Both the position numbers and the translations under genes were made by a program. 43,020 nucleotides of DNA from Candidatus Bathyarchaeota archaeon (GTDB taxonomy: Archaea; Thermoproteota; Bathyarchaeia; Bathyarchaeales; DTEX01). The DNA lies in contig JAGTRG010000002.1 of NCBI GenBank assembly GCA_018396435.1, forward strand, positions 3,882-46,901. The letters are read 5' to 3'. Under the pieces are notes generated by a model that did no database searches, was not told the DNA's origin, and was given only the letters and a program-made list of their open reading frames with translations. The stretch's first letter is position 1. The number at the start of each line of letters is the position of its first letter. Below, piece by piece: positions 700-3,543 of the stretch.

Positions 700-894
700 A
701 TAACCATTAATAAAATTATCTGATATGCGGCGATATATTCTGTTAATTCACCTTTTCAGGTTTAATTGGGAACCCATATTACCTTTACAAGTTATTTCCA
801 CACTTACCAATCGCCATTATTTGTTTTGACTGTTGAAGATAAGGTTAAATGAGTCGTCATCCAATATTTTTGTTTGAGTTGGGAGGCCAAATTA

Positions 895-2658
895 TTGGAT
901 TACTCACTAGTTACGGAAGCCTATGAGAAAATTGAGGGTACAACTAAAAGGCTTGAGATGACAGATTACCTAGTTGACTTTTTCAGGAAGACCCCGAAAG
1001 ATGTGATTGATAAGGTTGTTTATTTAACTCAGGGGAAGCTATACCCGGATTTCGTGGGTATAGAGCTCGGCATGGCGGAGAAGCTCGCAATAAGGGCTGT
1101 TGCCAAGGCCACTGGGCGAAGTGAGAAGGAAATTGAAGAAGATCTTGCAAAAACTGGCGATATAGGTGAAACAGCTCAAAGGTTTCTTGAGAAGAAGCGC
1201 CAAATATCGTTTTTCCGGGTGCCGCTTACTGTTGAGAGAGTTTATCAAACACTTGACAAAATAGCTAGAGCCGCCGGCGAGGGGTCGATGGATTTAAAAG
1301 TGAATCTGTTAGCCGGGATTCTGGCAGACGCAACGCCTAAAGATGCAAAATATATAATTAGAACCGTTACCGGAAAACTCCGCCTTGGAATAGCCGACAT
1401 GACTGTTTTGGACGCTTTAGCCATAGCTTATGGCGGGGGCAAGGAGGCGAGAGATCTTATAGAAAGGGCGTATAATATATCTTCAGACCTAGGGAAAGTT
1501 GCAAGGGATCTCGCTGAATACGGCATTGAAACGCTTAAGAACTTTAAGATCACTCTTGGCAGTCCGATTAGACCTATGCTGGCTGAAAGACTTAGCTCGC
1601 CAGAGGAGATACTGGAGAAGCTTGGCGGTAAATGCATCGTTGAGTACAAATATGACGGTGAAAGGATACAGGCCCATAAGGATGGGGAAAAAGTAGTATT
1701 GTTCTCGAGGAGACTTGAGGATGTAACGGAGCAGTATCCAGACGCTGTTGAGCTAATTAAGAGCCATGTTAAACTTAAGGAGGCAATTGTTGAAGCTGAA
1801 TGCGTTGCAGTAAACCTGGACTCAGGTGAAATGATGCCTTTCCAAGAACTTATGCATAGGAGGCGAAAATACGAGATTGAGAAGGCTATAAATGATTATC
1901 CCATTTCGCTCTTCATGTTTGACGTTCTTTATGTTGATGGAAAAGATTTAACTTTGGAACCATATCCGGTCAGGCATAAAATCCTAGAAGAAATAATTCA
2001 ACAAAGCGATAGAGTTCAGTTAGCTAAATATCTGATAGTGGATAATGTTGATGATCTGGAGAAATTTTTCGAAGAGGCTGTGGAAGCCGGATGTGAAGGA
2101 CTGGTTTGTAAGTCGCTTAATAGCGACGCTGTATATCAAGCAGGTGCAAGGGGCTGGCTATGGATAAAATATAAACGGGACTATAAGAGCGAGATGATAG
2201 ACACAGTTGACTTAGTTGTGGTTGGAGCCTTTTATGGTAGAGGAAGAAGAGCTGGGACCTATGGAGCATTGCTATTGGCAATATACAACCATGAGAATGA
2301 CACGTTTGAAACGATTTGTAAGTGCGGATCAGGCTTCACTGATGAAGATCTGAGAAACCTGCCGAAGATGCTTGAACCATATAAAATCGATCATAAGCAT
2401 CCAAGGGTTAATTCAAACCTTGAGGCGGACGTATGGTTCCTGCCGAAAATGGTTATAGAAGTTATCGGAGCCGAAATAACCCTGAGCCCAATACACACAT
2501 GCGCAAGAGACATGATAAGGAAGGGAAGCGGTTTGGCAATAAGGTTCCCAAGGTTCACAGGGAAATATCGCACGGATAAATCAGCTGAAGATGCCACCAC
2601 AATTGACGAGATAATAGAAATGTACAAGAAACAGCTAAAGAAAATAGAGGCAGAATAG
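895..2658 (+). CDS. lig: ATP-dependent DNA ligase
   Basis: Joins nicks in duplex DNA using ATP; this is the archaeal/eukaryotic ligase I type used for Okazaki fragments and repair. The order is an alpha-helical DNA-binding domain (about residues 1-200), then the adenylation domain with the KYDGERIQAHK active-site motif (its Lys takes AMP), then motifs such as EAECVAVN, MFDVLYVDG, EGLVCKS and WIKYKRDY, then the OB-fold domain. The length, just under 590 residues, is normal. The frame can begin at TTG 874. I prefer TTG 895 because GGGAGG at 881-886 sits 8 bases upstream and the product then begins MDYSLVTEAYEKIE, as in relatives. No operon partner follows; a minus-strand RNA candidate converges on its 3' end. 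Confidence 0.95.
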   Translation: MDYSLVTEAYEKIEGTTKRLEMTDYLVDFFRKTPKDVIDKVVYLTQGKLYPDFVGIELGMAEKLAIRAVAKATGRSEKEIEEDLAKTGDIGETAQRFLEKKRQISFFRVPLTVERVYQTLDKIARAAGEGSMDLKVNLLAGILADATPKDAKYIIRTVTGKLRLGIADMTVLDALAIAYGGGKEARDLIERAYNISSDLGKVARDLAEYGIETLKNFKITLGSPIRPMLAERLSSPEEILEKLGGKCIVEYKYDGERIQAHKDGEKVVLFSRRLEDVTEQYPDAVELIKSHVKLKEAIVEAECVAVNLDSGEMMPFQELMHRRRKYEIEKAINDYPISLFMFDVLYVDGKDLTLEPYPVRHKILEEIIQQSDRVQLAKYLIVDNVDDLEKFFEEAVEAGCEGLVCKSLNSDAVYQAGARGWLWIKYKRDYKSEMIDTVDLVVVGAFYGRGRRAGTYGALLLAIYNHENDTFETICKCGSGFTDEDLRNLPKMLEPYKIDHKHPRVNSNLEADVWFLPKMVIEVIGAEITLSPIHTCARDMIRKGSGLAIRFPRFTGKYRTDKSAEDATTIDEIIEMYKKQLKKIEAE

Positions 2659-2659
2659 G

Positions 2660-2671
2660 AAAAATTTAAAA
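2660..2671 (-). terminator. T-rich stretch at the end of the minus-strand RNA
   Basis: Read on the minus strand, this is TTTTAAATTTTT, starting about 4 bases after the 3' side of the basal stem of the RNA candidate. Archaeal RNA polymerase stops at T-rich tracts, so this fits the RNA's 3' end. It also lies just after the ligase stop codon, where on the plus strand it is A-rich. Confidence 0.45.
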
Positions 2672-2675
2672 TATC

Positions 2676-2810
2676 GCCAAGCCAGGTCTAAGCCTTAGGC
2701 GCTGCCCGGCCCGTTTAAGCAAAGTCTTTATCGCGCACTAATCTTCAGCCGTTTTGATCAGCGCGCTCTTCGCTTAAACGCGACGCCTAAAGCGTACCCC
2801 CTGGCTTAGC
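2676..2810 (-). ncRNA. Candidate structured non-coding RNA, family unknown
   Basis: On the minus strand this 135-base segment folds into one long interrupted hairpin. P1 pairs 2810-2800 with 2686-2676 (11 bp). P2 pairs 2793-2784 with 2701-2692 (10 bp). P3 pairs 2780-2772 with 2720-2712 (9 bp, perfect). P4 pairs 2765-2761 with 2736-2732 (5 bp). The apical loop has 24 bases. The only two imperfect pairs (2808/2678 and 2791/2694) are G-U on the minus strand but C-A on the plus strand, which points to minus-strand RNA. A TATA-like box is centred about 27 bases before 2810 and a T-rich stretch follows 2676. It lacks the signatures I know for RNase P, SRP RNA, 5S rRNA and tRNA. Confidence 0.6.
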
Positions 2811-2832
2811 AGGCTAAAACTTGTATTGTTTT

Positions 2833-2841
2833 CTATATAAG
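2833..2841 (-). promoter_or_regulatory. TATA box for the minus-strand RNA
   Basis: On the minus strand this reads CTTATATAG. Its centre is about 27 bases upstream of 2810, the first base of the basal stem, which is the normal archaeal TATA-to-start distance. An A-rich stretch immediately upstream could serve as a BRE. It lies in the gap between the ligase and the next plus-strand gene. Confidence 0.5.
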
Positions 2842-2895
2842 ACTTTTGCACAAATTTTTAAGTTTAAAAACTTAATATTTTTTGAGTGATGTATA

Positions 2896-3543
2896 TTGGA
2901 GCGTTCTATCGAGAGGTTTGAGGATGATTTAAATATTACTGCAAATAGGCTTTGTAGTGGTGAAAGTGAGAAGGTTTGTCAGCATATTATGAGATTAAAA
3001 GATAGGCTTATACTTCTTTATAAGAAGAATGTTGTTAAAATCAATCATTCTATAATGGAGCTTATCTGCGCCAAATATCTCATTCTGAGCGGTTATTATG
3101 TTGATTTAGAGTATGTTTTAGACAGCATGTCATGCGACATATATGCCTTAAAAGGGTTAGGTAGCTTAATCGTTGAGGTTGAAACCGGCTATGTTCCGCC
3201 CGAGCACGCCACTGACCCTATAACTTACTGTAAAGCCAGGATAGTTAGTAAGATAACTAGGTATAGCGGCTATGCTGAAAAATTTGCCTTAGCAACCCCG
3301 CCATATTATACTCTATGGTTTCCTTTAACCCTAGTTAAGCCTCCGCGCTACAGGAAGATGAGCGAGATTAAAGGGATTAAAGCGCTTTGTGATCTCTATT
3401 ACAGTAATCCGCCTGTTAGCCTAGAGGAGATAAGAAACGCCCGTCTACATGCAATATACATTCTCGACATTGACAAGGGTGTTGTTAGAGAAACTGACCC
3501 TAACACTTATTTAGAGAGATCGCAACAATTTTGTGAATGGTGA
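2896..3543 (+). CDS. Uncharacterised protein with PD-(D/E)xK nuclease-like motif
   Basis: A 215-residue soluble protein that I cannot assign to a named family. After a helical N-terminus it shows E55, then D81 (CDIYA), then E94-V-E96 in a hydrophobic strand (LIVEVETGY). This spacing resembles the catalytic core of PD-(D/E)xK nucleases, with Glu in place of the last Lys; K113 or another residue would have to substitute if it is active. A DNA or RNA cleaving role is therefore possible but unproven. The start is TTG, with GTGAT just upstream as a Shine-Dalgarno match. Its 3' end abuts or overlaps the rhomboid gene, so the two are probably cotranscribed. Confidence 0.7.
   Translation: MERSIERFEDDLNITANRLCSGESEKVCQHIMRLKDRLILLYKKNVVKINHSIMELICAKYLILSGYYVDLEYVLDSMSCDIYALKGLGSLIVEVETGYVPPEHATDPITYCKARIVSKITRYSGYAEKFALATPPYYTLWFPLTLVKPPRYRKMSEIKGIKALCDLYYSNPPVSLEEIRNARLHAIYILDIDKGVVRETDPNTYLERSQQFCEW

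Follow-up and report, generated by a model that had tools for sequence, protein, structure and literature searches.

The minus strand of positions 2676–2810 in the window, the 43,020-nucleotide stretch of a 1.39-Mb Bathyarchaeia MAG analysed here, encodes a structured RNA that almost certainly represents a real family. Comparison with relatives establishes the RNA, its strand, its fold with a pseudoknot, the position of its promoter, and its association with the gene of a neighbouring protein, c7. The RNA class is categorically new in that no relative was found in Rfam or in the literature searched, and the newness lies at the level of the class. An initial annotation had proposed a structured minus-strand RNA forming its own unit, which is borne out by compensatory changes, an excess of G-U pairs, conserved promoter spacing, and the lack of an Rfam match. 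Its suggestion of a new archaeal RNA family is likewise supported by the covariation and by the absence of Rfam matches. On balance, the evidence favours a reading in which a free-standing, trans-acting RNA with a docked arm would partner with c7 in nucleic-acid processing or repair.

The RNA lies between the stop codon (2658) of a convergent ATP-dependent DNA ligase gene (874–2658, plus strand; Pfam PF01068, PF04675, and PF04679) and the start (2896) of the divergent 215-aa c7 ORF (2896–3543, plus strand). The RNA segment has a GC content of 56%, compared with 12–21% in its flanks, and the ORF list of the window places no ORF within it, both in agreement with the initial annotation. The TATA-like box and the T-rich tract were also found where they had been placed. 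The TATA box (CTTATATAG, 2833–2841, minus strand) lies ~28 nt before the P1 stem, next to a BRE-like tract of the RNA promoter that was read in the sequence (TTTGTGCAAAAGT, 2842–2854, minus strand). The TGTGCAAAA-TTATATA arrangement is also present upstream of the RNAs of relatives and of the type B RNAs described below. The position of the box is conserved, as TATA[TA] occurs 36–50 nt before the P1/P2 loop (a 15-nt window) in 40 of 62 upstream regions (mean 7.3 and maximum 15 in 200 shuffles). The T-rich 3' end (2658–2671, minus strand) is a presumed terminator with counterparts in the T-runs of relatives; TTTT occurs within 40 nt of P1 at 34 of 49 loci, and the expectation derived from these contigs is 11.9. 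Judged from these sequence features, the conserved TATA spacing and the T-runs after P1 indicate that the RNA is probably a free-standing gene, whose own promoter would drive its transcription as a separate unit. At family f8 loci L079, L086, L087, L115–L117, L165, L167, and L168, a conserved hairpin and U run (AGUGGAA...UUCCACUUUUUU) follow the RNA and form an intrinsic-terminator-like 3' end, here in archaea.

The minimum free energy of positions 2640–2860 is −81.4 kcal/mol, compared with −59.3 ± 4.0 for shuffled sequences (z = −5.5; 0 of 200 shuffles as good). Within 2676–2811, the minus strand folds with −71.7 kcal/mol and the plus strand with −50.3 kcal/mol. The minus-strand product is a long imperfect hairpin (2676–2810) with stems P1, P2, P3, and P4 of 11, 11, 13, and 11 bp and a 4-bp pseudoknot. 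The initial annotation had listed stems of 11, 10, 9, and 5 bp; the 11 bp of P1 were correct, whereas P2, P3, and P4 are all longer than described and the pseudoknot was missed. All elements are on the minus strand. P1 pairs 2800–2810 with 2676–2686, and its sequence varies between loci while pairing is kept. P2 pairs 2783–2793 with 2692–2702. P3 (2768–2780 with 2712–2724) and P4 (2756–2766 with 2733–2743) covary at fixed length, with two-sided changes in 12 of 13 P3 pairs (107 arms) and 11 of 11 P4 pairs. Between them lies J34 (2725–2732), a one-sided 8-nt bulge and presumed hinge with the sequence GAUAAAGA and the consensus GAYAAAGA, whose letters are near-invariant. The pseudoknot joins CGGC (2748–2751) within the apical loop L4 (2744–2755) to GCCG (2707–2710) in J23.

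The J12 loop between P1 and P2 is almost universal, and its motif GAGYANGC/GGCUYAGAC is present in nearly all loci, including those of type B. The 5' side (2794–2799; consensus GAGYAN) reads GGGUAC in the window, and the 3' side (2687–2691) reads UUAGA. The GAG/UYAGA pattern holds in most loci; GGG replaces GAG in the window and in L157, and the C stem is non-standard. A putative kink-turn that binds L7Ae would be an attractive reading of J12, but position A1n is a G in the window.

Covariance models were built from 20 arms (alignment A1, model R1) and from 43 arms (A2, R2), and the final alignment, A3, holds 107 arms. Covariation was one of the tests by which the initial annotation proposed to be judged. 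In A3, two-sided changes occur in 27 of 28 pairs, including all four pseudoknot pairs; 90.6% of cells pair, and the observed score was reached by none of 500 shuffles. Sliding the partner by one column reduces pairing to only 37–38%. The L4–J23 pseudoknot is paired in 95.0% of cells over the 107 arms, with a covariance model that was built without it, and eight fully complementary combinations occur (CAGC/GCUG, CGGC/GCCG, CGGU/ACCG, AGGC/GCCU, CAAC/GUUG, UGGC/GCCA, AGAC/GUCU, and CAGU/ACUG). G-U cells outnumber A-C cells 199 to 71 across arms, which supports the minus strand as the RNA and extends the strand hint that the initial annotation had drawn from individual G-U/C-A pairs. Element lengths are nearly constant over the 107 arms: P4 has 11 nt in 103, J34 8 nt in 102, L4 12 nt in 85, and P3 13 nt in ~90. 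The contact between the P4 apical loop and the base of P3 implies a bend of the arm at J34, and such a bend would account for helices of similar and constant length. In the docked shape that we infer, the 8-nt hinge would let P4 lie back against P3, so that the apical loop of P4 reaches J23 at the foot of P3 and docks there through the 4-bp pseudoknot.

Searches with Rfam 15 (4227 models) gave no match at the gathering score for the window or its relatives, and only two chance-level matches of 14–20 bits at E ≤ 10. The literature search returned general surveys only and no paper on non-coding RNA of Bathyarchaeia. The initial annotation had seen no RNase P or SRP signature, and both RNAs are indeed encoded elsewhere. 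The SRP RNA (RF01857) of the window genome is a separate locus (G000:C41:8837-9224), and RNase P RNA (RF00373) lies elsewhere in 16 of 21 relatives and has no match in the window. The new RNA resembles archaeal SRP and RNase P RNAs in being structured and free-standing but differs in that both are found separately in relatives, and the idea that it substitutes for either was rejected on this ground. In the window genome and its two closest relatives (G000, G001, and G010), the SRP RNA is ~388 nt long rather than ~328 nt, owing to a ~60-nt insertion. Archaeal H/ACA and C/D guide RNAs also combine hairpins with internal loops, and J12 shows a possibly kink-turn-like pattern (GA on each strand and a UYA bulge). 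However, the RNA has fixed loop sequences and no variable guide pocket; each of J34, J23, J12, and L4 is either conserved between species or covaries within the RNA. OLE RNA has protein partners. More generally, OLE, GOLLD, and ROOL are conserved, elaborate, free-standing orphan RNAs whose functions were unknown at their discovery (PMC12286853). The RNA described here shares these three properties but is far shorter (~135 or 230 nt), archaeal, and built of one or two repeated arms, with no Rfam similarity.

BLAST located the RNA in all 11 genomes of its own genus, and other families yielded weaker copies. Covariance-model searches of relatives, which the initial annotation had recommended, found R2 arms in 63 of 257 Bathyarchaeia genomes. 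In a sample of 398 genomes from the phylum, 30 of 30 matching genomes among the matches listed belong to Bathyarchaeia. No copy was found in the viral and plasmid sequences searched; two viral pattern matches, L184 and L185, fail the model. In many genomes a single P1 stem encloses two tandem arms, and in others one arm, which gives RNAs of ~230 and ~135 nt; the window holds the one-arm form of type A, as the arm-bearing RNA is called here. The ~95-nt arm (P3, P4, and the pseudoknot) would be a module used once or twice per P1/J12 stem. The first arm of L085 (6952–7062) is near-identical to the other copy in G098 and is fused to unrelated sequence close to a contig end; it probably reflects a chimeric assembly or a recent, partial duplication.

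The gene order ligase, RNA, c7 is kept in families f1 and f5. In f11, the RNA is divergent to c7 with no ligase alongside, and the arm-type RNA of f6 and f8 is located away from c7, at differing places with differing neighbours. Outside genus g15, no downstream gene is shared, and the next gene is often convergent. Inheritance of the RNA looks vertical. Its intergenic position, the lack of a common downstream gene, and the different neighbours in f6 and f8 make it very probable that the RNA is free-standing and acts in trans.

The divergent neighbour c7 is a candidate partner. It matches no Pfam, NCBIfam, or PADLOC family and is highly conserved (~60% identity between families) and present in 114 of 257 Bathyarchaeia genomes. 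Its AlphaFold2 model (pLDDT 89.6) has a helix-strand order that fits PD-(D/E)XK proteins (alpha-beta-beta-beta-alpha-beta core). Foldseek matched it to SfsA, XisH, and restriction enzymes with probabilities of 0.97–0.99 but weak E-values (best 4e-3). Residues D81, E94, E96, and K119 are invariant, and ExE stands where a catalytic ExK is expected. The c7 gene adjoins the RNA in families f1, f5, f11, f12, and f13, with another form of the RNA in f12 and f13. It is found in 58 of 63 RNA-positive and 56 of 194 RNA-negative genomes (Fisher p = 9e-20, phylogeny ignored). With linked families removed, the counts are 34 of 39 and 56 of 192 (p = 1e-11, phylogeny likewise ignored). No c7 match was obtained in 5 of 63 RNA-positive MAGs, and no RNA was found in many c7-positive genomes (f27, f18, and several f8). 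Gene neighbours of c7 include DNA ligase, a GIY-YIG nuclease, DUF123, and, below the cut-off, an alkyltransferase-like domain; these neighbours suggest a possible role in repair.

Type III toxin-antitoxin RNAs, such as ToxI of ToxIN, consist of tandem pseudoknotted modules that are genetically tied to a nuclease-like protein. The same combination is seen here, tandem pseudoknotted modules associated with the gene of a nuclease-like protein. However, the modules are ~95 nt long with 13- and 11-bp helices, the RNA is either divergent to c7 or unlinked from it, and the protein is predicted to resemble PD-(D/E)XK enzymes rather than ToxN. Inheritance appears vertical with no plasmid or phage copy found, and c7 lacks a PADLOC or Pfam match. 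Assignment to this class was therefore rejected.

Genomes without arms provide a further link to c7. Beside their c7 genes lie RNAs that share P1, J12, the promoter, and the orientation but differ in the interior. An RNA of this second kind is immediately upstream of c7 in f12 and f13, and in f6 and f8 a type B RNA is found ~300 nt upstream. Type B loci (L218, L219, L222–L224, L228, L230, L232, L234, and L237–L242) carry the interior hairpin GCGAUNACAUCAAAUG and their own TGTACAAACAACTTTATAT promoter; a sixteenth locus, L220, was counted despite a variant motif. The pattern of J12 with a pairing P1 is present in 18 of 60 c7-neighbourhood loci, with zero matches in 20 shuffles of each. Two-sided changes occur in 22 pairs among 15 type B sequences, in which P1 had been selected by pairing. 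Among the sampled c7-positive genomes of f6 and f8, type B lies next to c7 in 16 of 23 without arms and 0 of 10 with arms (p = 3e-4). This replacement of one type by the other next to the c7 gene is the strongest indication that both types serve c7.

Whether the RNA and c7 are partners is finely balanced on this genomic evidence. If they are, the RNA could act as a cofactor, scaffold, or inhibitor of c7, probably through the near-universal J12 loop, and the physical complex would function in nucleic-acid processing or repair. A broader proposal, which is tentative and leans toward doubtful, unites type A, type B, and the f12/f13 form in a single RNA superfamily spanning Bathyarchaeia, whose members share a constant P1/J12 core while their interiors are exchangeable; this superfamily would form an obligate complex with a previously undescribed PD-(D/E)XK-fold protein.

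Genus g15 uses the arm differently. Single arms at L108, L110, L106, L097, and L107 lie in 5' UTRs of dodecin (G041 and G064), of a cold-shock-domain (CSD) protein (G041 and G047), and of two short Pro/Lys-rich ORFs. Those of the dodecin and CSD genes are 50–75 nt before the gene, which has a strong Shine-Dalgarno sequence. Most of these copies share TGCTGAGAATA, located downstream of the TATA box and ahead of the presumed start site, and only one match to TGCTGAGAATA exists outside RNA copies. Judged from the sequences, the leader arms form a small regulon, and their use suggests that the arm has a regulatory activity of its own. These leaders, together with tandem arms that look like tandem aptamers, would fit a ligand- or condition-sensing module, similar to a riboswitch or thermosensor. 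The UTR copies would then be its true use, and the free-standing copies decoys or attenuated leaders. This explanation is unlikely, since outside g15 no conserved gene lies downstream of the RNA, and the next gene is often convergent with it. Accordingly, a riboswitch or cis-leader class was rejected, the conserved downstream set of dodecin and CSD genes being confined to g15, and these genes are absent from most RNA-positive genomes, which excludes them as general targets. At L105 (G041:C6:258795-258971), a decayed dodecin gene with three in-frame TGA codons directly follows an intact two-arm RNA, and G038 (L170) retains a shorter dodecin remnant after an intact two-arm RNA. Genomes of f1 have neither dodecin nor CSD genes. 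Both observations indicate that the link to these genes is local and does not reflect the ancestral role.

The occurrence of the same arm in free-standing, tandem, and 5' UTR forms could also reflect titration, in which free-standing arms sequester a regulator that also binds some mRNAs, as in CsrB or 6S systems. This is improbable, as the arm greatly exceeds a simple protein-binding hairpin in complexity, there is no known regulator, and c7 resembles a nuclease and not a translational regulator. The initial annotation's other proposal, an antisense sRNA against the end of the ligase mRNA, draws on the convergent arrangement in f1 and f5, but it is very hard to sustain because the RNA ends close to the stop codon of the ligase gene and hardly overlaps it, and because the RNA is not beside the ligase in f6, f8, and f11. 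A dispersed, MITE-like palindromic repeat lacking RNA function, which had been named as a refuting possibility and would suit the long near-perfect inverted repeat, the varying neighbours within f8, and the several copies in some genomes, has a negligible probability given the single copy in the window genome, the absence of copies from the viral and plasmid sequences searched, the compensatory changes in nearly every pair including the pseudoknot, the strand-specific G-U excess, the fixed promoter spacing, and the synteny kept across families.

Few folded RNAs newly found in archaea combine strong covariation with a pseudoknot and fixed helix geometry. The RNA described here is conserved in several Bathyarchaeia families, occurs in modular one- and two-arm forms, has been redeployed into mRNA leaders in g15, and has a specific candidate protein partner in c7. 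If the partnership is true, the two would constitute an RNA-protein system absent from the annotation libraries searched. Should the superfamily proposal also hold, the RNAs and the PD-(D/E)XK-fold protein would represent a new archaeal nuclease or repair machine that contains RNA.
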